This document shows positions 7,513 to 17,949 of a stretch of 17,949 nucleotides of DNA, in pieces. Made by a program: the position numbers and the translations under genes. This DNA comes from Burkholderiaceae bacterium (lineage in GTDB: Bacteria > Pseudomonadota > Gammaproteobacteria > Burkholderiales > Burkholderiaceae): the NCBI GenBank assembly GCA_022701965.1, contig JAKONL010000426.1, positions 1-17,949 of the forward strand, given 5' to 3'. How positions within the stretch are numbered: position 1 is the first letter of the stretch; every line of letters begins with the position of its first letter. The notes under the pieces were generated by a model. That model made no database searches. It saw only the letters and a list, made by a program, of their open reading frames with translations, and had not been told where the DNA came from.

Positions 7513-7572
7513 GCGCGCGAGTTTAGGCGGCGCCCCGGGATGGGGCACGGATGTTGCTGCAAGCCCTTCACG

Positions 7573-8862
7573 ATGAAATCCGGACTGAGCTTCCTTGTCG
7601 CTGCGCTGCGCAGCGAAATCGACGAACTCGACCAGCTCGCGCGCACCAGCGAGCTGGTCGGCGCCATCGGGCGGCTGGTGCACGGCCTCCAGCGCGAACG
7701 CGGCATCTCCAACGTGGTGCTGGCGTCCGGCGGCCAGCGATTCGCCGCCGAGCTGCAGACGCAGGTCGCCGAATCGCTGCAACTGGAAGAACGCGTGCGC
7801 GAGGGCTTCGACCGCCTGGAGACCGACCCCGGCCGGCTCGGCAACGGCGCGCGCCTGTTCAGCCGCATCGCCTGGGTGCTCCCGGGCATGGACGCCCTGC
7901 CCGACCTGCGGCGGCGCATCGGCACACTGGCCATGCCGGTGGCCGACGCGACCGCGGCTTTCGTGAAGCTGATCGCCGGCCTGCTGGCGGTGGTGTTCGA
8001 GGCCGCGGACGGTGCGACCGATCCGGAGATCTCGCGCCTCCTGGTGGCGATGTTCAATTTCATGCAGGGCAAGGAATTCGCCGGGCAGGAACGGGCCTGC
8101 GGTGCCGCGGCCTTCACGTCGGGCCGCAACGACAGCGGCCGCCAGCAGCAGTGGCTGCACCTGATCGAGTCGCAGGAGCGCTGCTTCCAGGTGTTCTCGG
8201 AGTTCGCCGGCGCCGAACTCCAGGCCCAGTGGCTGGCCAACCTGCCACCGGCCCACACCGCCGAACTCGAACGCCTGCGCCGCATCGCCTGCGCCGCGCC
8301 GGCGGGCGTCGCGCTCGACCCCGAGCTCAGCGCGCCGTGGTTCGACTGCTGCACGCGGCGCATCGACGCCATGCAGGTGGTCGAGACGCGGCTCGCGGCC
8401 GACCTGCGCGAACTGTGCGTCGTCAAGAGCGAACAGGTGCGCGCCGAGATGGCCGCGCACACGGCGCTGCTGACGCAGATTTCCACCCGGTCGCCGGCGC
8501 CGGTCGCGGTCGCTTTCTTCGATCCCGTCGCGGCGGATACGGCCGACGCGCCCGTCGCCCCGGCGGCGAACACCGCCCTCTACGGCCGGCAGCTCGAGCG
8601 CGCCATCCTCGAGCTGGTCCAGGACCAGTCGCGGCGGCTGCAGGCCATGCGCGACGAACTCGACACCGTGCGCGGCGCGCTCAATGAACGCAAGCTCGTC
8701 GAGCGCGCCAAGGGCCTCCTGATGGCGCACCGCAAGCTCAGCGAGGAGGACGCCCACAAGATGCTGCGTCAGACCGCGATGAACCAGAACCGCCGGCTGG
8801 TGGATGTCGCCGAATCGGTGCTGGCGATGGCCGATTTCCTGCCCATGCACGACCGCGGCTGA
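7573..8862 (+). CDS. nasR: NIT-ANTAR nitrate-responsive antiterminator (NasR)
   Basis: This is a 429-residue cytoplasmic regulator. The N-terminal NIT (nitrate/nitrite sensing) domain spans roughly residues 20-290 and includes [20 protein letters not shown], with Arg41 and Arg43 in the helix that binds nitrate in this family, and later [15 protein letters not shown]. An ANTAR RNA-binding domain closes the protein from about residue 355: [48 protein letters not shown], with all usual conserved positions. Klebsiella NasR, of similar design, binds nitrate and prevents termination in the nas leader. Here two matching leaders lie downstream, at about 8959-9119 and 14776-14923. The start is set at 7573 because the family begins MKSGL-like; an in-frame ATG at 7540 would add 11 residues including three Cys. 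No leader or sigma-54 site is seen before nasR itself, so it may be made constitutively. Confidence 0.93.
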
Positions 8863-8932: not shown

Positions 8933-8947
8933 TGGCACGCGCTTTGC
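8933..8947 (+). promoter_or_regulatory. Sigma-54 (RpoN) promoter for nrtABD
   Basis: TGGCACG, four bases, then TTGC matches the -24/-12 consensus TGGCACG-N4-TTGC exactly. With the C at 8947 taken as -12, transcription starts near 8959, giving a leader of about 161 nt before the nrtA ATG. Its place right after nasR and before a NasR-type leader fits nitrogen-controlled nitrate assimilation. Confidence 0.87.
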
Positions 8948-8958
8948 GATGACGGTCA

Positions 8959-9088
8959 CAAGGACCGGCGACGGTCATCAGGCGGGCGGCATCCAACGGC
9001 GGGTGCGGCCTGCCGCACCGGACAAAGGCGTCCGCATCCACAAGGACCCGTTCGCGGACGGGCCCGTGCAATGCGGACGCCTTTTTTT
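8959..9088 (+). ncRNA. NasR/ANTAR antitermination leader RNA 1 (upstream of nrtA)
   Basis: In order: a 5' hairpin GACCG-GCGA-CGGTC (8963-8976) with a GNRA-type tetraloop; P1, a 6-bp stem (8989-8994 with 9001-9006, one T.G wobble) closing the hexaloop AACGGC; a 12-nt linker; P2, a 5-bp stem CGGAC/GTCCG (9019-9023 with 9030-9034) closing the hexaloop AAAGGC; and the terminator (9024-9088). Both loops have A at position 1 and G at position 4, the hallmark of ANTAR target RNAs. The P2 loop and 3' arm are also the 5' arm of the terminator, so P2 and the terminator exclude each other. NasR bound to P1-P2 should allow read-through. A rival hairpin, GGTGCGG-CCTG-CCGCACC (9002-9019), overlaps P1 and the foot of P2. 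Confidence 0.85.
9024..9088 (+). terminator. Leader terminator upstream of nrtA (attenuator)
   Basis: The 5' arm 9024-9037 (AAAGGCGTCCGCAT) pairs perfectly with 9071-9084, followed by T residues to 9088. The enclosed bases contain a small inner hairpin, CCCGT/ACGGG (9047-9051 with 9058-9062). It ends 31 nt before the nrtA ATG, a position that suits an attenuator rather than the end of nasR. Confidence 0.93.
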
Positions 9089-9119: not shown

Positions 9120-10367
9120 ATGTCCGACCCGCTGCCGAATCCCAAGTTGAGCCGCCGCAAGGTGCTGCAGGCCGCCGCCGTTGGCGCCCTCGCGATCGAT
9201 CCGGCGCTGCGCGCCGCCGTCTACGCCCAGGGCTCCGACAAGCCGGAGAAGGAGGAGGTGAAGATCGGCTTCATCCCGCTGACCGACTGCGCCAGCGTCG
9301 TCATGGCGTCGGTGCTGGGCATCGACAAGAAGTACGGCGTGAAGATCGTGCCGAGCAAGGAAGCGAGCTGGGCCGGCGTACGCGACAAGCTCGTCAACGG
9401 CGACCTCGACATGGCGCACGTGCTCTACGGGCTGGTCTACGGCGTGCACCTGGGCGTGGGCAGCACGAAGAAGGACATGGCCGTGCTCATGACGCTCAAC
9501 AACAACGGCCAGGCGATCACGCTGTCGAAGAAGCTGGCCGACAAGGGCGCGGTCGACGGGCCGTCGCTGGCGAAGTACATCGCCAAGGAAAAGGGCGACT
9601 ACACCTTCGCCCAGACCTTCCCGACCGGCACCCACGCGATGTGGCTCTACTACTGGCTCGCCTCGGCCGGCATCGACCCGTTCAAGGACGTGAAGAACAT
9701 CGTCGTGCCGCCGCCGCAGATGGTCGCCAACATGCGCATCGGCAACATGGACGGCTTCTGCGTCGGCGAGCCCTGGGGCCAGCGCGCCATCATGGACGGC
9801 ATCGGCGTGACTGCGATCACCACCCAGGACATCTGGAAGGACCATCCCGAGAAAGTGCTGGGCACGACCGCCGACTTCGTGAAGAAGTACCCGAACACGG
9901 CACGCGCCGTGACCGCGGCCATCCTGGAGGCCGGCCAGTGGATCGACACCGGCCTGCAGAACAAGAACAGGATGGCCGAGACCATCGCCGACAAGAGCTA
10001 CGTCAACACCAGCGTCGACGCCATCAACCAGCGCATCCTGGGCCGCTACACCAACGGCATGGGCAGGAACTGGGACGACCCCAACCACATGAAGTTCTAC
10101 GGCGACGGCACGGTGAACTTCCCCTACCTGTCGGACGGCATGTGGTTCCTCACGCAGCACAAGCGCTGGGGCCTGCTCAAGGCGCATCCGGACTACCTGA
10201 AGGTCGCCACGGAGATCAACCGGATCGATGTCTACAAGCAGGCCGCGACGGCCACCAAGACCCCGGTGCCGGCCTCCCCGATGCGGTCGAGCAAGCTGCT
10301 CGACGGCGTCGTCTGGGATGGCAAGGACCCGGCGAAGTACGCCGACTCTTTCAAGATCAAGGCCTGA
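9120..10367 (+). CDS. nrtA: Nitrate ABC transporter substrate-binding protein (NrtA/NasF/CmpA family), Tat signal
   Basis: This 415-residue periplasmic nitrate-binding protein begins with a twin-arginine signal (LSRRKVLQAAAVGALAID). The mature part shows family text: VKIGFIPLTDCASVVMA, KEASWAGVRDKLVNGDLDMAHVLYG, a TFPTGTHAMWLYYWLA segment, GNMDGFCVGEPWGQRAI and WKDHPEKVLGTTADF. These are typical of NrtA/CmpA anion-binding proteins, and the nitrate gene context makes nitrate or nitrite the likely ligand. The frame is open upstream to 8886, but that stretch covers the leader RNA. The ATG at 9120 has GGAG (9109-9112) 7 nt away and directly gives the signal peptide. nrtB follows after 10 nt. Confidence 0.94.
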   Translation: MSDPLPNPKLSRRKVLQAAAVGALAIDPALRAAVYAQGSDKPEKEEVKIGFIPLTDCASVVMASVLGIDKKYGVKIVPSKEASWAGVRDKLVNGDLDMAHVLYGLVYGVHLGVGSTKKDMAVLMTLNNNGQAITLSKKLADKGAVDGPSLAKYIAKEKGDYTFAQTFPTGTHAMWLYYWLASAGIDPFKDVKNIVVPPPQMVANMRIGNMDGFCVGEPWGQRAIMDGIGVTAITTQDIWKDHPEKVLGTTADFVKKYPNTARAVTAAILEAGQWIDTGLQNKNRMAETIADKSYVNTSVDAINQRILGRYTNGMGRNWDDPNHMKFYGDGTVNFPYLSDGMWFLTQHKRWGLLKAHPDYLKVATEINRIDVYKQAATATKTPVPASPMRSSKLLDGVVWDGKDPAKYADSFKIKA

Positions 10368-10377
10368 GGAGCACACC

Positions 10378-11310
10378 ATGGTCAGCGCCGTCTTCCATTC
10401 CCCGCTCGAGACTTCCCTGCCGGTTCCGGCAGCCACCAACGTCGTGCCGCTGAAATCCGCGGCCGACATCGCGATGCCGGCAGCGGCACGCGAAGCGCGC
10501 AAGCCGAACAAGCCGCACAAGCCGCTCGACCTGCGCGCCTTCTGGATGCGCGTGCTGCCGCCCCTGGCCGGCTTCGGCCTGCTGCTGGTCGTGTGGGAGC
10601 TGATCGCCGTCAGCAGCACCACCGGCTTCCCGACCCCGCTGGCCGTCTTCAAGCAGGCGCTGGTGGTGTTCAGCGATCCGTTCTACAGCAAGGGGCCGAA
10701 CGACCAGGGCGTCGGCTGGAACATCCTGTCGTCGCTGCAGCGCGTGGCGCTGGGCTTCGGGCTGGCGGCGCTGGTGGGCATCCCGGCGGGCTTCGCGATC
10801 GGCCGCTTCGAATTCCTCTCGCGCATGTTCAATCCGCTGATCAGCCTGCTGCGGCCGGTCTCGCCGCTGGCCTGGCTGCCGATCGGCCTGCTGGTCTTCA
10901 AGGGCGCCAACCCGGCGGCGATCTGGACCATCTTCATCTGCTCGATCTGGCCGATGGTGATCAACACCGCCGTGGGCGTGCAGCGCGTGCCGAGCGACTA
11001 CATGAACGTCGCACGCGTGCTGAACCTGAGCGAGTGGAAGATCATGACCCGGATCCTGTTCCCGGCCGTGCTGCCCTACATGCTCACCGGCGTGCGCCTG
11101 GCGGTGGGCACCGCGTGGCTGGTGATCGTCGCGGCCGAGATGCTGACCGGCGGCGTGGGCATCGGCTTCTGGGTCTGGGACGAGTGGAACAACCTCAACG
11201 TCGCCAACATCATCATCGCGATCTTCGTGATCGGCGTGGTCGGGCTGATCCTCGAATACGCGCTTGTCAGGATCGCCACCGCGTTCACGTTCGAGGAGGT
11301 GAAGTCATGA
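10378..11310 (+). CDS. nrtB: Nitrate ABC transporter permease
   Basis: This 310-residue inner-membrane permease has a polar N-terminal tail of about 55 residues, unusually long, rich in Pro, Ala and Lys. Hydrophobic segments follow, beginning LPPLAGFGLLLVVWELIAV, then LQRVALGFGLAALVGIPAGFAIG, PVSPLAWLPIGLLVF, AIWTIFICSIWPMVINTAVGV and NIIIAIFVIGVVGLILEYALV. The cytoplasmic EAA-type coupling loop is MNVARVLNLSEWKIMTRILFPAVLPYM, which docks on the ATPase. This matches BPD_transp_1 permeases of the NrtB/SsuC/TauC group. A GAGGAG ribosome-binding site overlaps the nrtA stop region (10366-10371). Its stop overlaps the nrtD start in ATGA, indicating translational coupling. Confidence 0.94.
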   Translation: MVSAVFHSPLETSLPVPAATNVVPLKSAADIAMPAAAREARKPNKPHKPLDLRAFWMRVLPPLAGFGLLLVVWELIAVSSTTGFPTPLAVFKQALVVFSDPFYSKGPNDQGVGWNILSSLQRVALGFGLAALVGIPAGFAIGRFEFLSRMFNPLISLLRPVSPLAWLPIGLLVFKGANPAAIWTIFICSIWPMVINTAVGVQRVPSDYMNVARVLNLSEWKIMTRILFPAVLPYMLTGVRLAVGTAWLVIVAAEMLTGGVGIGFWVWDEWNNLNVANIIIAIFVIGVVGLILEYALVRIATAFTFEEVKS

Positions 11311-12113
11311 ACCACGACGACCGATTCATCGACATCCAGGACGTCGAGCAGACCTTCAAGACCGCCAAGGGCAGCTTCCAGGCGTTGCGCGACATCCACC
11401 TGACGGTCGCCAAGGGCGAGTTCGTCGCCCTGATCGGGCATTCGGGATGCGGCAAGTCGACGCTGCTCAACCTCATCGCCGGCCTGACCCGGCCGACGCA
11501 CGGCGTGCTGCTGTGCGCCGACAAGGAGATCGCCGGCCCGGGCCCGGAACGCGCGGTGGTGTTCCAGAACCATTCGCTGCTGCCCTGGCTGACCTGCTTC
11601 GAGAACATCTTCCTGGGCGTCGAGCGGGTGTTCGGCGCGAGCGAGTCGAAGGCGCAGTTGCGCACGCGCACCGACGCGGCGCTGGCGCTGGTCGGCCTGA
11701 CGCCGGCGGCGGCCAAGCGCCCGGGCGAGATCTCGGGCGGCATGAAGCAGCGCGTGGGCATCGCACGGGCCCTGGCGATGGAACCCAAGGTGCTGCTGAT
11801 GGACGAACCCTTCGGCGCGCTCGACGCCCTCACCCGCGCACGACTGCAGGACGAGCTGCTGGCGATCGTGCAGAAGACGCAGAGCACGGTCGTGATGGTC
11901 ACGCACGACGTGGACGAGGCGGTGCTGCTCTCCGACAAGATCGTGATGATGACCAACGGCCCGTCGGCCACCATCGGCGAGGTGCTGCGCGTCGAGCTGC
12001 CACGTCCGCGCAACCGGGTCGAGCTGGCCGAGGACCGCGACTACGTGCACTACCGCAAGGCGGTGATCGACTTTCTCTACACGCGGCAAGGGCACGTCGA
12101 AAAAGCCGCCTGA
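11307..12113 (+). CDS. nrtD: Nitrate ABC transporter ATP-binding protein
   Basis: This 268-residue cytoplasmic ATPase energises the importer. It has Walker A GHSGCGKST at residues 44-52, Q-loop Gln87 (VVFQNHSLLPW), signature ISGGMKQ at 142-148, Walker B VLLMDEP at 162-168, D-loop FGALD and switch His200 (MVTHDVDEA). Its length is that of a simple NrtD/SsuB/TauB-type ATPase, so the second cyanobacterial subunit NrtC, with a fused binding domain, is absent. The ATG overlaps the nrtB stop by 4 nt and has a strong GAGGAGGT site (11293-11300). No clear terminator follows before gcd. Confidence 0.94.
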   Translation: MNHDDRFIDIQDVEQTFKTAKGSFQALRDIHLTVAKGEFVALIGHSGCGKSTLLNLIAGLTRPTHGVLLCADKEIAGPGPERAVVFQNHSLLPWLTCFENIFLGVERVFGASESKAQLRTRTDAALALVGLTPAAAKRPGEISGGMKQRVGIARALAMEPKVLLMDEPFGALDALTRARLQDELLAIVQKTQSTVVMVTHDVDEAVLLSDKIVMMTNGPSATIGEVLRVELPRPRNRVELAEDRDYVHYRKAVIDFLYTRQGHVEKAA

Positions 12114-12233
12114 ACCGCGGACCGCCTCGGCAGGAGGGGTTTGCAATCCAAGGGTTTTCCCTAAGTTGTGGAAAAATTGAGGTCTTTCGGCCGCCGTTGC
12201 GGCCGCTTCGATTCGCACCCTGGGATTTTTTCG
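12114..12233 (+). other. nrtD-gcd spacer with two inverted repeats
   Basis: This 120-nt spacer carries TTTTCC/GGAAAA (12155-12160 with 12170-12175) and CGGCCG/CGGCCG (12188-12193 with 12200-12205, 6-nt loop). Neither is followed by a clean U-run, so termination of the nrt transcript here is doubtful. No sigma-54 site or ANTAR hexaloop is seen, unlike the other two intergenic regions of the nitrate locus. A sigma-70 promoter for gcd could lie here but is not obvious. Confidence 0.4.
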
Positions 12234-14642
12234 ATGACAGACAAACTGGACCGGCAACCCGCGCGTGGGCGCGGCATGCTGCTCGCGCTCGGCGCGCTCA
12301 CCTTCCTGATGGGCGCCTTTCTCGCGGTCGGCGGCGCCTGGCTCGCGACGCTCGGCGGCAGCTGGTACTTCGTGCTCGCCGGCATCGCGCTGGGGGTCTC
12401 CGGATTCCTGATCGCACGCCGCCGGCCGGCCGGCGCCTGGCTGTTCGCGCTGACGCTGGTCGCCACCGCGGCCTGGGCGGTTGCCGACGCAGGGCTGCAT
12501 TTCTGGCCGCTGGTGTCGCGCGGGGTCGCCTTCGCCGTGCTCGGGCTGCTGATCACGCTGGCCTATCCGACGCTGGTCCGCGCCGCGGGCGGCGTCACCG
12601 GGCGCGGCGCCTATGGCCTCGCCGGGCTGCTGGCGGTCGCGCTGGCGGCCACCGGCGCTTACGCCTTCGTTCCGATCCCCGTCGTCGCGGCGCGAGGGGA
12701 GGCGCCGGCGGTGACGCCGGTCGCGGCCGGCGCGGCGCAGAAAGACTGGCAGCACTGGGGCAACACCACCGCCGGCGACCGCTTCGCCGCGCTCGACCAG
12801 ATCACGAAGGCCAACGTCGGTCAGCTCCAGGTCGCCTGGACCGCGCACACCGGCGACATCCCGCAGAGCACCGGCTCCGGTGCCGAGGACCAGAACACGC
12901 CGCTGCAGATCGGCAGCACGGTCTACGTCTGCACCGCGTACGGCAAGGTCCTGGCGCTCGACGCCGACACCGGCGCGCAGCTCTGGAAGTACGACCCGCA
13001 GGCCAAGGCGCCGAACTGGCAGCGTTGCCGCGGCCTGGGCTACCACGACCAGGATGCCGCCACGGGAGCGACCGGCGTCGCGGCCGCAGCCGCACCGCCG
13101 ACGGCCGCCGCGGCCGCCGATTGCCGCAAGCGCCTGCTGCTGCCCACGCTCGACGCCCGCCTGATCGCCATCGACGCCACGACCGGCCGCCCCTGCGCCG
13201 GCTTCGGCAACGGCGGCACGGTCGACCTGTCGGTCGGCATGGGCGACATCAAGTTCGGCTACTACCAGCAGACCTCGACGCCGCTCGTCGCCGGCAACCT
13301 GGTGATCGTCGGCGGCCGCGTCGCCGACAACTGGTCGACCGACGAGCCGCCGGGCGTGGTGCGGGCGTTCGACATCGTGACCGGCGCGCTGGTCTGGGCC
13401 TGGGACTCGGGCAATCCGGCGATCACGAAACTGCCACCCGCAGGCCAGACCTACACGCGCGGTTCGCCCAACGTCTGGGCGGCGATGTCGTACGACCCGA
13501 AGCTCGGCTTGGTCTACTTGCCGACCGGCAACGCGACGCCCGACTTCTTCGGCGGCCACCGCACGGCGGACGAGGACAGGTACAGCTCGTCGATCGTCGC
13601 CCTGGAGGCCGCGAGCGGCAAGGTGCTCTGGCACTTCCAGACCACCCACCACGACCTCTGGGACTTCGACCTGCCGGCCCAGCCGCTGCTGCACGACCTG
13701 CCCGACGGCGCGGGCGGCACCCAGCCCGCGCTGGTGCAGATCACCAAGCAGGGCGAGATCTTCATGCTCAACCGCGAAACCGGGGTGCCGATCGCCGAAG
13801 TGCAGGAGAAGCCGGTGCCGCAGGGCAAGCTCCCGGGCGAGCGCTACTCGCCGACGCAGCCGTTCTCGGTCGGCATGCCGTCGATCGGCAACGCGACGCT
13901 GGCCGAATCCGACATGTGGGGCGCCACGCCCTTCGACGCCCTGCTCTGCCGCATCGCCTTCAAGGGCATGCGCAGCGAAGGCGTCTACACGCCGCCGGGG
14001 CTCGACCACGCACTGCAGATGCCGGGTTCGCTCGGCGGCATGAACTGGGGCAGCGTGTCCTTCGATCCGACCACCGCCACCATGTTCGTCAACGACATGC
14101 GCCTGGGGCTGGCCAACTACATGATCCCGCGCGACAGGATGCCCAAGAACGCCAGCGGCATCGAGATGGGCGCCGTGCCCCAGGAAGGCACGCCGTACGG
14201 CGCGATGCGCCAGCGCTTCCTGTCCCAGCTGGGCATCCCGTGCCAGGCGCCGCCCTTCGGCACGATGTCGGCGATCGACCTGAAGACCCGCAGGATCGTC
14301 TGGCAGGTGCCGGTCGGCACGGTGCAGGACACCGGGCCGCTGGGCATCCGCATGCACCTGCCGATCCCGATCGGCATGCCGACGCTGGGCCCCTCGCTCG
14401 CCACCCAGTCGGGGCTGGTGTTCTTCGCCGGGACGCAGGACTTCTACCTGCGCGCCTTCGACAGCGCGACCGGCAAAGAGGTCTGGAAGGCGCGACTGCC
14501 CGTGGGCAGCCAGGGCGGTCCGATGACCTACGTCTCTCCCAAGACCGGCCGGCAGTACGTAGTGATCTCCGCCGGCGGGGCCCGGCAGTCCCCGGACCGC
14601 GGCGACTACGTGATCGCCTACGCGCTGCCGGACGCCAGGTAG
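12234..14642 (+). CDS. gcd: Membrane-bound PQQ-dependent glucose dehydrogenase (quinoprotein)
   Basis: This 802-residue protein matches the E. coli Gcd length (796). It is predicted to oxidise glucose to gluconolactone in the periplasm and pass electrons to ubiquinone. Residues 1-150 hold about five transmembrane helices (GMLLALGALTFLMGAFLAVGG, YFVLAGIALGVSGFLIA, AWLFALTLVATAAWAVADAG, and others). The rest is an eight-bladed PQQ propeller starting DWQHWGNTTAGDRFAALDQI, with repeated tryptophan-docking motifs such as ALDADTGAQLW, AFDIVTGALVW and AFDSATGKEVW. His271 (RGLGYHD), Asp474 (HHDLWDFD) and Lys505 (ITKQGE) match, by my recollection of the family, PQQ-binding and catalytic residues. A 12-residue Ala/Pro stretch (AAAAPPTAAAAA) is a local insertion. 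The start is ATG 12234; an in-frame ATG at 12168 is less likely. No pqq genes are nearby, so the cofactor must come from elsewhere. Confidence 0.95.
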   Translation: MTDKLDRQPARGRGMLLALGALTFLMGAFLAVGGAWLATLGGSWYFVLAGIALGVSGFLIARRRPAGAWLFALTLVATAAWAVADAGLHFWPLVSRGVAFAVLGLLITLAYPTLVRAAGGVTGRGAYGLAGLLAVALAATGAYAFVPIPVVAARGEAPAVTPVAAGAAQKDWQHWGNTTAGDRFAALDQITKANVGQLQVAWTAHTGDIPQSTGSGAEDQNTPLQIGSTVYVCTAYGKVLALDADTGAQLWKYDPQAKAPNWQRCRGLGYHDQDAATGATGVAAAAAPPTAAAAADCRKRLLLPTLDARLIAIDATTGRPCAGFGNGGTVDLSVGMGDIKFGYYQQTSTPLVAGNLVIVGGRVADNWSTDEPPGVVRAFDIVTGALVWAWDSGNPAITKLPPAGQTYTRGSPNVWAAMSYDPKLGLVYLPTGNATPDFFGGHRTADEDRYSSSIVALEAASGKVLWHFQTTHHDLWDFDLPAQPLLHDLPDGAGGTQPALVQITKQGEIFMLNRETGVPIAEVQEKPVPQGKLPGERYSPTQPFSVGMPSIGNATLAESDMWGATPFDALLCRIAFKGMRSEGVYTPPGLDHALQMPGSLGGMNWGSVSFDPTTATMFVNDMRLGLANYMIPRDRMPKNASGIEMGAVPQEGTPYGAMRQRFLSQLGIPCQAPPFGTMSAIDLKTRRIVWQVPVGTVQDTGPLGIRMHLPIPIGMPTLGPSLATQSGLVFFAGTQDFYLRAFDSATGKEVWKARLPVGSQGGPMTYVSPKTGRQYVVISAGGARQSPDRGDYVIAYALPDAR

Positions 14643-14749: not shown

Positions 14750-14764
14750 TGGCATGCGCCTTGC
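14750..14764 (+). promoter_or_regulatory. Sigma-54 (RpoN) promoter for the nitrate reductase operon
   Basis: TGGCATG, four bases, then TTGC (followed by A) is one mismatch from TGGCACG-N4-TTGC, with correct GG-GC spacing. It lies 108 nt after the gcd stop. With C14764 as -12, the start is near 14776, giving a leader of about 148 nt. Confidence 0.83.
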
Positions 14765-14775
14765 ATGCCCCTGCA

Positions 14776-14878
14776 GCAAGGTCACCGACGGCGACGAAGC
14801 CGGCGGCGACCCCGAGGACAAAGGCGTCCGCATGACAGCTCGGCCCAGGCAGGGCCCGGCCATGCGGACGCCTTTTTT
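14776..14878 (+). ncRNA. NasR/ANTAR antitermination leader RNA 2 (upstream of the oxidoreductase-nasA operon)
   Basis: P2 is GGAC/GTCC (14816-14819 with 14826-14829) closing the hexaloop AAAGGC, identical to leader 1, and its loop plus 3' arm form the 5' arm of the terminator. P1 is less regular. The strongest stem is CCGACGGC/GCCGGCGG (14785-14792 with 14799-14806, one A.G mismatch) with a six-base loop GACGAA, so position 4 is G but position 1 is G rather than A. A rival 3-bp stem, GTC/GGC (14781-14792), closes ACCGAC, which has the A1/G4 pattern but is weak. P1 and P2 are 9 nt apart in the first model and 23 nt in the second. The shared core and context make NasR control likely. Confidence 0.78.
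14820..14878 (+). terminator. Leader terminator upstream of the oxidoreductase gene (attenuator)
   Basis: There is a perfect 15-bp stem, 14820-14834 with 14861-14875, followed by T residues to 14878. An inner hairpin GGCCC/GGGCC lies at 14842-14846 and 14852-14856. The terminator ends 45 nt before the ATG of the oxidoreductase gene, so it acts as an attenuator of that operon. Confidence 0.93.
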
Positions 14879-14923
14879 GTTGTCGCAGGCGCCGTCGTGG
14901 GCGCCGCAGGACGGAGAGCGGTC

Positions 14924-16183
14924 ATGGACATGCGCGCGAAGAAGCAGAAACTGGTGCTGGTCGGCAACGGCATGGCCGGCGTGCGGACGCTCGAGGAACT
15001 GCTCAGGATCGACCCGGCGCTCTACGAGATCACCGTCTTCGGTGCCGAGCCGCACCCCAACTACAACCGGATCATGCTGTCGCCGGTGCTCGCCGGGGAG
15101 CAGACCGTCGACGAGATCGTGCTGAATCCGTGGTCCTGGTACGAGGAGCACGGCATCACGGTGCATGCCGGACGCCGGGTGACCGGCGTGGACCGGGTCA
15201 GGCGCATCGTGCGCGCCGACGACGGCCGCGGCGAGCCGATCGAGGCGTCCTACGACCGCCTGCTGCTGTGCACCGGCTCCCACCCCTTCATGATCCCGGT
15301 GCCGGGCAATGACCTCGAAGGCGTGATCGCGTACCGGGACATCGCCGACACGCAGACCATGATCGACACCGCCAGGACGCACCGCCACGCGGTGGTGATC
15401 GGCGGCGGCCTGCTGGGCCTCGAGGCCGCCAACGGCCTGATGCTGCGCGGCATGGACGTCACGGTGGTGCACGTCAACGCCTGGCTGATGGACCGCCAGC
15501 TCGACGAGACGGCCGCCGGCCTGCTGCGCAAGTCCCTGGAAGACCGCGGGCTGAAGTTCCGCCTCGCGGCGCACACGCAGGCGCTCGTCGGCGACCGCGA
15601 AGACGGCAAGGCCGGCCGCGTGAAGGCGATCCGCTTCAGGGACGGCAGCGAGCAGGCGGCCGACCTGGTGGTGATGGCGGTGGGCATCCGTCCCAACGTG
15701 AAGCTGGCCGAGTCGATGCGCCTGCACTGCGAGCGCGGGATCGTGGTGACCGACACGCTGCAGACCGTGACCGACGCGCGCATCTACGCGGTCGGCGAAT
15801 GCGCGGCGCACCGCGGCATCGCCTACGGCCTGGTGGCGCCGCTGTTCGAGCAGGCCAAGGTCGCGGCCAACCACCTGGCCGAGATGGGCTACGGCCGCTA
15901 TCTCGGCTCGCTGACCTCCACCAAGCTCAAGGTCACGGGCATCGACCTCTTCAGCGCCGGCGACTTCACCGGCGGCGAAGGCACCGAGGAGATCGTGCTG
16001 AGCGATCCGTTCGCCGGCGTCTACAAGAAGCTGGTGATCAAGGACGACCGGCTGGTGGGCGCCTGCCTCTATGGCGACACGGCCGACGGCAGCTGGTACT
16101 TCGAGCTGCTGCGCGAGGGCCGCAGCGTGGCCGACCTGCGCGAGACGCTGATGTTCGGCGAGCCGCAACCGGAAGAGGACTGA
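14924..16183 (+). CDS. FAD/NAD(P)H-dependent oxidoreductase, NirB N-terminal-like; probable electron donor subunit for NasA
   Basis: This 419-residue flavoprotein has an FAD dinucleotide fold at residues 13-19 (VGNGMAG) and a second fold at 157-165 (VVIGGGLLG). It has NirB-like text throughout: PHPNYNRIMLSPVLAGE, WYEEHGITVHAGRRVTGVD, LLLCTGSHPFMIPVPG, RDIADTQTMI, VDTLQT-type VVTDTLQTVTDARIYAVGECAAHRG and LGSLTSTKLKVTGIDLFSAGDF. It corresponds to the FAD/NADH module of large NirB or of Klebsiella NasC. It ends before any BFD-like [2Fe-2S] Cys cluster or siroheme domain, so it is not a nitrite reductase. Its stop is followed at once by the nasA ATG, which supports a role as reductant supplier to NasA. 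The first ATG was chosen because GGAG (14913-14916) lies 7 nt away. Confidence 0.88.
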   Translation: MDMRAKKQKLVLVGNGMAGVRTLEELLRIDPALYEITVFGAEPHPNYNRIMLSPVLAGEQTVDEIVLNPWSWYEEHGITVHAGRRVTGVDRVRRIVRADDGRGEPIEASYDRLLLCTGSHPFMIPVPGNDLEGVIAYRDIADTQTMIDTARTHRHAVVIGGGLLGLEAANGLMLRGMDVTVVHVNAWLMDRQLDETAAGLLRKSLEDRGLKFRLAAHTQALVGDREDGKAGRVKAIRFRDGSEQAADLVVMAVGIRPNVKLAESMRLHCERGIVVTDTLQTVTDARIYAVGECAAHRGIAYGLVAPLFEQAKVAANHLAEMGYGRYLGSLTSTKLKVTGIDLFSAGDFTGGEGTEEIVLSDPFAGVYKKLVIKDDRLVGACLYGDTADGSWYFELLREGRSVADLRETLMFGEPQPEED

Positions 16184-17949
16184 ATGCGCGAAACCAAGTC
16201 CACCTGCCCCTACTGCGGCGTCGGCTGCGGCGTGGTCATCGAGTCCGACGGCGCGCGGATCACCGGCGTGCGCGGCGACCCCGACCATCCGGCGAACTTC
16301 GGACGCCTGTGCACCAAGGGCTCGACGCTGCACCTCACCGCGAGCGCCGAGGTCGCGCTGCAGACGCGCCTGCTGCGCCCGATGCAGCGGCCGCGGCGCC
16401 GCGCCGCGCCGCAGCCCGTGTCCTGGGACACCGCGCTCGACACCGCCGCCGACCGGTTCGCGCAGGTCGTCGCCGAGCACGGGCCCGACGCGGTCGCGTT
16501 CTACATCTCCGGCCAGCTGCTGACCGAGGACTACTACGTCTTCAACAAGCTCGCCAAGGGCCTGATCGGCACCAACAACATCGACACCAACTCGCGCCTG
16601 TGCATGAGCAGCGCCGTCGCGGGCTACAAGAAGACGCTGGGCGCCGACGCGCCGCCCGCCTGCTACGACGACTTCGACGACGCCCGGTGCCTGTTCATCG
16701 TCGGCAGCAACACCGCCTGGGCCCATCCGATCCTGTTCCGTCGCATCGAGGACGCCCGGCGCGCCAATCCGGCGATGAAGATCGTCGTCGTCGACCCGCG
16801 CCGCACCGACACCTGCGAGATCGCCGACCTGCACCTGGCGATCCAGCCGGGCACCGACGTGATGCTGTTCAACGGGATGCTGCACCTGATGCTCTGGGAA
16901 GGCTGGATCCGGCCCGACTACATCGCCGCGCACACCAGCGGCTTCGACGCCCTCGAGGCGACCGTGCGCGACTGCACGCCCGACCGCGTGGCGCAGGTCT
17001 GCGGCATCGACACGGCGGCGCTGCGCGAGGCCACCCGTCTGTTCGCGACCTCGGCGGCGACGCTGAGCCTCTATTGCCAGGGGCTGAACCAGTCGAGCTC
17101 GGGCACGGCCAAGAACGCGACGCTGGTCAACCTGCACCTGGCCACCGCGCAGATCGGCCGGCCGGGCGCCGGGCCGTTCTCCCTCACCGGCCAGCCCAAC
17201 GCGATGGGCGGGCGCGAGGTCGGCGGCATGGCGAACCTGCTGGGCGCGCATCGCGACATGGCCAATGCCGATCACCGTGCCGAGGTCGCCGCGCTGTGGG
17301 GTGTCGACAGCGTGCCTTCGCGCCCCGGCAAGACCGCGGTCGACCTGTTCCAGGCCGCGGCCGACGGCGAGATCAGGGCGCTGTGGATTTCCTGCACCAA
17401 TCCCGCCCAGTCGATGCCCGACCAGTCCACGGTCCGGCGCGCGCTGGAGCGATGCGAGTTCGTCGTGCTGCAGGAGGCCTTCGCGACCACCGCGACCGCG
17501 GCTTACGCCGACCTGCTGCTGCCGGCCACGACCTGGGGCGAGAAGGTCGGCACCGTGACCAACAGCGAGCGCCGCATCTCGCGCGTGCGGCCGGCGGTCG
17601 CGGCGCCCGGCGAGACGCGGCACGACTGGTCGGCCGTCGCCGATTTCGCGCAGCGGCTCGAACGGCGCCTGCCGGCGCGCGCCGCCGCCACGCTGTTTCC
17701 CTATGCGCTCGACAGCGACGCCGGCGCCGAGGCCATCTGGAACGAGCACCGCGAGAGCACCCGCGGCCGCGACCTCGACATCACCGGCCTGAGCTGGGCG
17801 ATGCTCGAATCGCAGGGACCGCAGCAATGGCCGTTGCCCGAGGGCGCGACGGCCGGGCGTGCCCGTCTCTACGAAGACGGCGTGTTCCCCACGCCCGACG
17901 GCCGGGCGCGCTTCTTCAATGCCGCCTACCGCCCGGTCGCCGAGCCGCG
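16184..17949 (+). CDS. nasA: Assimilatory nitrate reductase, molybdopterin catalytic subunit (3' end outside window)
   Basis: This cytoplasmic molybdoenzyme reduces nitrate to nitrite. The first 588 codons are visible and open to the window edge. An N-terminal [4Fe-4S] motif is formed by Cys8, Cys11, Cys15 and Cys43 (CPYCGVGC ... GRLCTKG). The likely molybdenum-ligand Cys140 lies in NSRLCMSSAV. Bis-MGD-binding segments follow: FIVGSNTAWAHPI, IVVVDPRRTDTCEIADLHLAIQPGTD, LYCQGLNQSSSGTAKN, GQPNAMGGREVGGMANLL, WISCTNPAQSMPD, and LLLPATTWGEKVGTVTNSERRISRV. This is the NasA/NarB group, whose members are often 700-900 residues; whether a C-terminal BFD [2Fe-2S] domain is present cannot be seen. The ATG abuts the stop of the oxidoreductase gene, with GAGGA (16175-16179) 4 nt away, indicating one operon and coupled translation. 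Confidence 0.95.
   Translation, partial: MRETKSTCPYCGVGCGVVIESDGARITGVRGDPDHPANFGRLCTKGSTLHLTASAEVALQTRLLRPMQRPRRRAAPQPVSWDTALDTAADRFAQVVAEHGPDAVAFYISGQLLTEDYYVFNKLAKGLIGTNNIDTNSRLCMSSAVAGYKKTLGADAPPACYDDFDDARCLFIVGSNTAWAHPILFRRIEDARRANPAMKIVVVDPRRTDTCEIADLHLAIQPGTDVMLFNGMLHLMLWEGWIRPDYIAAHTSGFDALEATVRDCTPDRVAQVCGIDTAALREATRLFATSAATLSLYCQGLNQSSSGTAKNATLVNLHLATAQIGRPGAGPFSLTGQPNAMGGREVGGMANLLGAHRDMANADHRAEVAALWGVDSVPSRPGKTAVDLFQAAADGEIRALWISCTNPAQSMPDQSTVRRALERCEFVVLQEAFATTATAAYADLLLPATTWGEKVGTVTNSERRISRVRPAVAAPGETRHDWSAVADFAQRLERRLPARAAATLFPYALDSDAGAEAIWNEHRESTRGRDLDITGLSWAMLESQGPQQWPLPEGATAGRARLYEDGVFPTPDGRARFFNAAYRPVAEP

Follow-up and report, generated by a model that had tools for sequence, protein, structure and literature searches.

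Organization of the Locus

The window, that is, the whole stretch of 17,949 nucleotides that was analyzed, carries on its forward strand two RNA leaders, one before transporter genes and the other before reductase genes. Upstream of both, at 7540-8862, lies the gene of NasR, a protein with a nitrate/nitrite-sensing NIT domain (Pfam, 4.8e-55) and an ANTAR RNA-binding domain (1.2e-20), with 4akk and 6wsh/6ww6 as relatives in the PDB. A NIT-ANTAR protein, cognate to an ANTAR leader, is therefore encoded in the same locus. The first gene after leader 1 encodes an nrtA-like ABC substrate-binding protein (9120-10367; NMT1_2, 1.4e-102) and is followed by an ABC transporter permease gene (10375-11310) and by the third gene of the transporter cluster (11315-12113), for which no Pfam family was matched. 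A PQQ-dependent dehydrogenase gene (12168-14642; PQQ, 1.4e-231) separates the transporter genes from leader 2. The first gene on the reductase side, after leader 2, encodes a FAD/NAD(P)H oxidoreductase (14927-16183; Pyr_redox_2, 2.1e-52; Rubredoxin_C, 4e-19), hereafter the FAD gene. It is followed by a molybdopterin oxidoreductase gene of the assimilatory nitrate reductase type, nasA-like (16184-17949; Molybdopterin, 1.9e-73; Molybdop_Fe4S4, 3.1e-19), which runs off the window. Both reading frames are uninterrupted within the window.

The closest relatives found for the FAD protein belong to Variovorax and kin (86% for loci L001 and L006), and the S15 of the window is 99% identical to the S15 of three genomes, one of them the Variovorax record with L006. 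The gene order of the window, PQQ dehydrogenase included, is identical in L002. Leader 2 is also present in L001, L003 and L005, where other DNA lies between nrtC and the FAD gene, and absent from L004 and L006, where the FAD gene comes directly after nrtC.

The promoter search of the window used the sigma54-type pattern TGGCAYGNNNNTTGC, which we take to be the consensus of such promoters. Only two exact matches were detected, each just upstream of one leader: 8933-8947 for leader 1 (predicted start near 8959) and 14750-14764 for leader 2 (predicted start near 14776). When up to one mismatch was allowed, the window gave four matches against 0.85 in shuffles.

Structure of the Two Leaders

In what follows, loop positions are numbered from the 5′ side, so that A1/G4 denotes a hexaloop with A at position 1 and G at position 4. 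Leader 1 contains an extra 5′ hairpin, P0 (8963-8976; stem GACC/GGTC, loop GGCGAC), whose stem covaries among relatives, then P1 with the canonical A1/G4 loop AACGGC (8981-9014, loop at 8995-9000), and P2 with the loop AAAGGC (9020-9033), which overlaps the 5′ arm of a terminator hairpin of -39.0 kcal/mol followed by a T run (9024-9084).

Leader 2 likewise has two hexaloop hairpins, each closed by a C-G pair. P1 (14780-14811) is a stem of 11 bp with two mismatches and the loop GACGAA (14793-14798). P2 (14816-14829) follows after 4 nt with the canonical loop AAAGGC, and a terminator hairpin of -41.8 kcal/mol with its T run occupies 14820-14875. Positions 14820-14829 are common to P2 and the terminator, so that the formation of P2 excludes the intrinsic terminator; the two structures are mutually exclusive in leader 1 as well. 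G4 is present in both loops of leader 2, and A1 in P2 only, since P1 carries G1. The 4-nt linker is short, as it also is in the orthologous leaders; in eutP (PMC3369931), induction suffered when the linker was 3 nt, and the linkers of natural eut leaders measure 5-12 nt.

The earlier note on this DNA had described a second NasR-type leader sharing an 18-nt core with the first, and our folding reproduced it. The core GGACAAAGGCGTCCGCAT occurs exactly twice in the window, at 9020-9037 and 14816-14833; in shuffles of the window its matches averaged 0.01 even with three mismatches allowed. A recent duplication of leader 1 was considered as the origin of leader 2 and rejected: P2 and the terminator are conserved in 94 of the 101 genomes of the genus group of genome G002, hence the core common to both leaders reflects a conserved motif and does not point to a recent duplication. 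A search for a close copy of leader 2 in the 'plasmids' collection returned only short unrelated matches.

Leader 2 folded with a z-score of -6.8, and none of 200 shuffles folded as well. P1 with the loop GACGAA reached -20.5 kcal/mol with a closing-pair probability of 0.9995. The only A1/G4 alternative indicated by the earlier note, a hairpin with the loop ACCGAC and the stem GUC/GGC (14781-14792), does exclude the stable P1, as had been stated, and is negligible (-1.7 kcal/mol, closing-pair probability 1.7e-10). Replacing G1 by A left P1 little changed (-19.7 kcal/mol); thus nothing in the folding explains the G. The note had also allowed for binding of NasR through a different upstream element. 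This is unlikely, because the transcript predicted from the match at 14750-14764 would start about 4 nt before P1; if that sigma54 start is right, a further canonical P1 upstream is likewise rejected, and there is no room for an extra 5′ hairpin such as the P0 of leader 1.

Orthologous Second Leaders

Ten orthologous leader 2s, all before the same FAD gene, were compared with that of the window (L001, L002, L003, L005, L177, L178, L179, L180, L181, and L215). Their P1 loops are AATGGC, AAAGGC, AACGGC or AACGAT, that is, A1/G4 in all ten, and A1 occupies both loops in each of them. G1 in P1 is thus specific to the window among these eleven leaders. The alignment across relatives proposed in the earlier note, to see which P1 fold covaries, was made with these leaders. 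In the eleven-leader alignment, in which the outer stem of the window P1 is one column out of register, 6 of the 11 pairs of the stem were changed on both sides and 89.1% of all helix cells paired. The covariation score was 0.342 against 0.188 in shuffles, with none of 500 as high, and in one of the five covariation measures, the count of double-change pairs, 43 of 500 shuffles attained the observed value. The stable P1 is therefore the conserved fold in the homologues, and the G1 of the window looks derived, since all ten orthologues with the same P1 stem are A1/G4.

At position 473 on the reverse strand of L181 (the same as L219) lies a first leader whose P1 is read as GAAGAC with a bulge, with no clean hexaloop; the L181 genome also has leader 2.

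Survey of Leaders: Variation at Position 1 of P2

A pattern of P2 plus terminator, with A at position 1 of P2, was run over four genome samples. It matched in 94/101 genomes of the genus group of G002 (the conservation mentioned above), in 107/399 genomes of its family, in 34/399 of its order and in 6 of a seven-genome genus. Together with the related-locus matches this gave 264 matches, 248 of them distinct. Ten were dropped, seven as reverse readings of two-way terminators and three for lack of a T run. A P2-like motif on both terminator strands, with the pattern read both ways, was observed in L123, L124, L129, L130, L133, L134, and L144. Among the 238 leaders kept, 217 have an A1/G4 hexaloop of at least 4 bp close to P2; inspection of the remaining 21 revealed several canonical ones with a 3-bp stem or with P1 further upstream.

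With C, G or T at position 1 of P2, 26 matches were found in 25 of the 399 family genomes and none in the 101 genus genomes. Six of them, including the sole C, were dropped, as they had no T run and no downstream FAD or nrtA gene. The 20 retained leaders and L016 all carry the G1 loop GAAGGC, 14 before a FAD gene and 7 before nrtA. The raw count alone is unconvincing, because a reversed-pattern control gave about 16 matches; it is the genes and T runs that make these leaders real. A genuine P2 that has C or U as its first loop letter was not found in the 399 family and 101 genus genomes. At position 4 of P2, letters other than G gave 11 matches in 399 genomes, none of them near FAD, NasR, nasA, nrtA or nrtC genes.

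The survey thus comprises 258 distinct leaders (238 + 20), 21 of which have G1 in P2; 17 of these 21 have an A1/G4 P1. Trees built from the downstream proteins require at least six changes of the P2 label for the FAD protein (36 rows; 12 of 33 inner branches of this tree are open) and at least four for NrtA (81 rows).

Survey of Leaders: Variation at Position 1 of P1

For the best P1 loop with G4, the 258 leaders gave A1 in 238, G1 in 7, T in 1 and no loop in 12. One of the seven (L206) was judged spurious, leaving six: the window (GACGAA, 11 bp), L272 (GACGAA, 12 bp), L294 (GATGAG, 12 bp), L079 (GATGTT, 9 bp), L304 (GCCGAT, 6 bp), and L291 (GAGGAG, 5 bp). When G4 was not demanded (stem of at least 5 bp, C-G closing), the tally was A..G in 217, G..G in 6, T..G in 1, other letters at position 4 in six, and no hairpin in 28. 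Mononucleotide shuffles produced G1/G4 hairpins of at least 5 bp at 19 of 1290, about 3.8 per 258 leaders, so the two shortest (L291 and L304) may be due to chance; the stems of the window, L272, L294, and L079 measure 9-12 bp. In four of the six (L079, L272, L291, and L294) another A1/G4 hexaloop lies upstream, so that these leaders could perhaps do without the G1 hairpin; no such hexaloop is present in the window's leader 2. Three successive hexaloop hairpins were observed in L079, L080, L093, and L104-L107.

C at position 6 is found in none of the six G1/G4 P1 loops against 209 of the 238 A1 loops (Fisher, 5.9e-6), a contrast that falls to p = 0.14 when each distinct loop is counted once. 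We considered whether G1 in P1 requires a position 6 that does not pair with it. This is contradicted by the GAAGGC loops of P2, all 21 of which gain a predicted G1-C6 pair (-6.0 vs. -4.0 kcal/mol), and is kept as a weak hint only.

The Extra 5′ Hairpin P0

Transporter leaders have a third hairpin, P0, at the 5′ end, downstream of the predicted sigma54 start and ahead of P1. Of 175 such regions, 85 contain a hexaloop with G4 and a C-G or U-G closing pair (A1 in 62, G1 in 20 and C1 in 3), as against 96 of 3500 shuffles. The P0 stem covaries in an alignment that took in 87 of 149 eligible leaders, and loops identical to GACGAA were found in P0 eight times. Their presence was rejected as proof of NasR recognizing G1 loops, since P0 loops also become tetraloops: among 167 distinct P0 loops, 65 are hexaloops and 73 are tetraloops, GCAA and UUCG among them (a count made without shuffle control). 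With so many switches to tetraloops P0 is perhaps merely a stable 5′ hairpin; its role could be that of a spare ANTAR site or of a 5′ stabilizer.

The NasR Protein

By alignment, the residue corresponding to EutV Tyr164 is His in the NasR of the window and Trp in that of Klebsiella oxytoca. The same His occurs in 36 loci of this NasR type (including a few duplicates), and almost all of their leaders are canonical; this residue consequently does not explain G1. A compensating change near the RNA-binding face was sought by comparison with relatives that have canonical leaders, and none was found. Compensation for G1 by NasR was rejected, as the ANTAR segment matches that of these relatives.

Position 1 in Previously Characterized Leaders

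The published rule (PMC3369931) requires A1 in both loops of ANTAR leaders. There, replacing A1 by U in either eutP loop reduced induction, and binding was weaker in position-1 mutants; the change tested there was not A-to-G. A1 has also been reported as required in nasF, and SELEX with NasR selected A1 (PMC7496416). In the structural description given in PMC8934654, the crystal structure of EutV with RNA shows A1 without protein contact and G4 stacked on Tyr164, and the accompanying text treats the reason for the conservation of A1 as open despite the absent contact. Variability of position 1 is not in itself new, as an actinobacterial survey (PMC8164766) gives the conservation of A1 and G4 only as >50%. 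Neither natural G1 variants in NasR leaders nor a third hairpin appear in the titles and abstract openings of the literature searched.

A Purine at Position 1

P1 of leader 2 departs from the A1 rule, and the leader is thus a variant of the ANTAR leader. The earlier note had offered three options, namely tolerance of G1 by NasR, remodeling of P1 on binding, or a weaker response. Tolerance appears the best supported, with G1 present in 21 P2 and 6 P1 hairpins of 258 leaders, and on this sequence evidence we consider it reasonably probable that leader 2 is a NasR-type attenuator of the reductase genes in which a purine is tolerated at position 1 of P1. The hairpins and the terminator of leader 2 were observed, as were its promoter match, the order of the genes, the covariation of the P1 stem and the repeated occurrence of G1; from these we infer the following course for its start, its binding by NasR and its nitrate response. 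Transcription would start at the leader's own sigma54 promoter, and the NasR encoded at 7540-8862 would serve it. Without nitrate, the terminator at 14820-14875 would form and transcription would stop. With nitrate, NasR would bind P1 and then P2, and a P2 held by NasR would sequester the 5′ arm needed by the terminator, so that the polymerase would read on through the FAD gene and that of the nitrate reductase. Position 1 would accept a purine, with G4 and the C-G closing pair kept, and NasR would still use the G1 P1.

Two other origins of this G are possible. It could be a lineage-specific lesion, given A1 in all ten orthologous leader 2s. The G at 14793 could also be a single-base sequencing error, since one base turns the loop into AACGAA, which is seen elsewhere.

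Reductase and Transporter Leaders

It is also possible that G1 reduces or grades the nitrate sensitivity of leader 2, as the third option had it. Here G1 would lower the affinity for NasR, so that the reductase genes would require higher nitrate (or NasR) levels than the transporter genes, and nitrate import would begin before reduction. We hold this to be a tentative possibility. The distribution of G1 is consistent with it: any G1 occurs in 15/38 FAD leaders against 8/132 nrtA leaders (Fisher, p = 1.9e-6, kinship ignored) and in 1/88 unclassified ones, the class being assigned by short N-terminal motifs in three FAD and 48 nrtA leaders. Also, in 19 hand-assembled pairs of transporter and reductase leaders, the window included (two transporter leaders are unclassified, and P0 was not counted), G1 lies on the reductase side only in 12, on the transporter side only in none and on neither side in 7; the two-leader genomes left out of these pairs include G004, G125, G147, G345, and G487. 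The weakened binding of EutV after mutation of position 1, in the mutant data of PMC3369931, points the same way. However, the genomes are related, and the association reflects fewer events than the counts suggest, because the P2 label needs only about six changes on the FAD tree. Moreover, seven transporter leaders also carry G1 in P2, and G1 in P2 was sought in the family and genus samples and not in that of the order, which added mainly A1 transporter leaders. Finally, both loops are A1 in all ten orthologous leader 2s; graded control is therefore not general in this clade.

A wider proposal, more speculative still and in our opinion rather unlikely, is that loop position 1 would act as a natural dial (A or G, not C or U), with G repeatedly setting the nitrate threshold of the reductase operon apart from that of the transporter operon under one NasR.

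It is improbable, on the other hand, that leader 2 is decaying, its P1 having lost recognition by NasR, and that the reductase genes depend on sigma54/NtrC control plus residual read-through, or on transcription from upstream. The presence of A1 in all ten orthologues argues for such a loss, as does its requirement in eutP and, reportedly, in nasF. Against it, the P1 stem, the C-G closing pair, G4, P2, the terminator (-41.8 kcal/mol) and the promoter match are all intact, a strong terminator lacking its antiterminator would shut the operon off, and within the window the FAD and nasA frames are uninterrupted.

Although the ACCGAC hairpin can be drawn with its GUC/GGC stem (14781-14792), remodeling of P1 into it on binding is extremely improbable, the alternative being about 19 kcal/mol weaker (-1.7 vs. 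-20.5 kcal/mol; closing-pair probability 1.7e-10) and the stable fold being the one that covaries in the orthologues.

We thus return to a tolerated purine in P1 as the preferred reading. The A1/G4 rule serves to recognize ANTAR target RNAs, and leaders that differ at position 1, two of them sharing a locus with a canonical partner under a single NasR, make the question of A1 directly testable. If G1 lowers affinity, this would explain how one sensor staggers nitrate import and reduction; if it leaves affinity unchanged, real targets escape search models requiring A1. With its canonical P2, no spare hairpin upstream and G1 in P1 only, leader 2 is among the cleanest natural test cases.

Comparison with Known Systems

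As far as the descriptions in PMC3369931, PMC7496416 and PMC3369936 extend, leader 2 resembles the nasF/NasR system of Klebsiella oxytoca in its NIT-ANTAR regulator, its two hexaloop hairpins and its P2 overlapping an intrinsic terminator, and, in what is reported of nasF, also in the nitrate-assimilation genes downstream. Unlike nasF, P1 carries G1 here, the locus has two leaders that keep transporter and reductase apart, and leader 1 has an extra 5′ hairpin. With eutP/EutV of Enterococcus faecalis it shares the two hexaloop hairpins, the kept G4 and top base pair, and the overlap of P2 with the terminator; EutV, in contrast, is a two-component response regulator, eutP has A1 in both loops, and the linker is 4 nt here. 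In leaders of this kind, the Rfam models narK RNA (RF03032) and P11 (RF00625) span either the P1/P2 hairpins or P2 with the terminator, but leader 2 scores under the gathering score of both (25.0 bits against 43.2, and 20.2 bits against 70, respectively). The close systems also include the orthologous leader 2s of Variovorax and kin, with the FAD gene downstream, a covarying P1 stem, an identical P2 and a terminator. They are always A1/G4, whereas P1 of the window carries G1.
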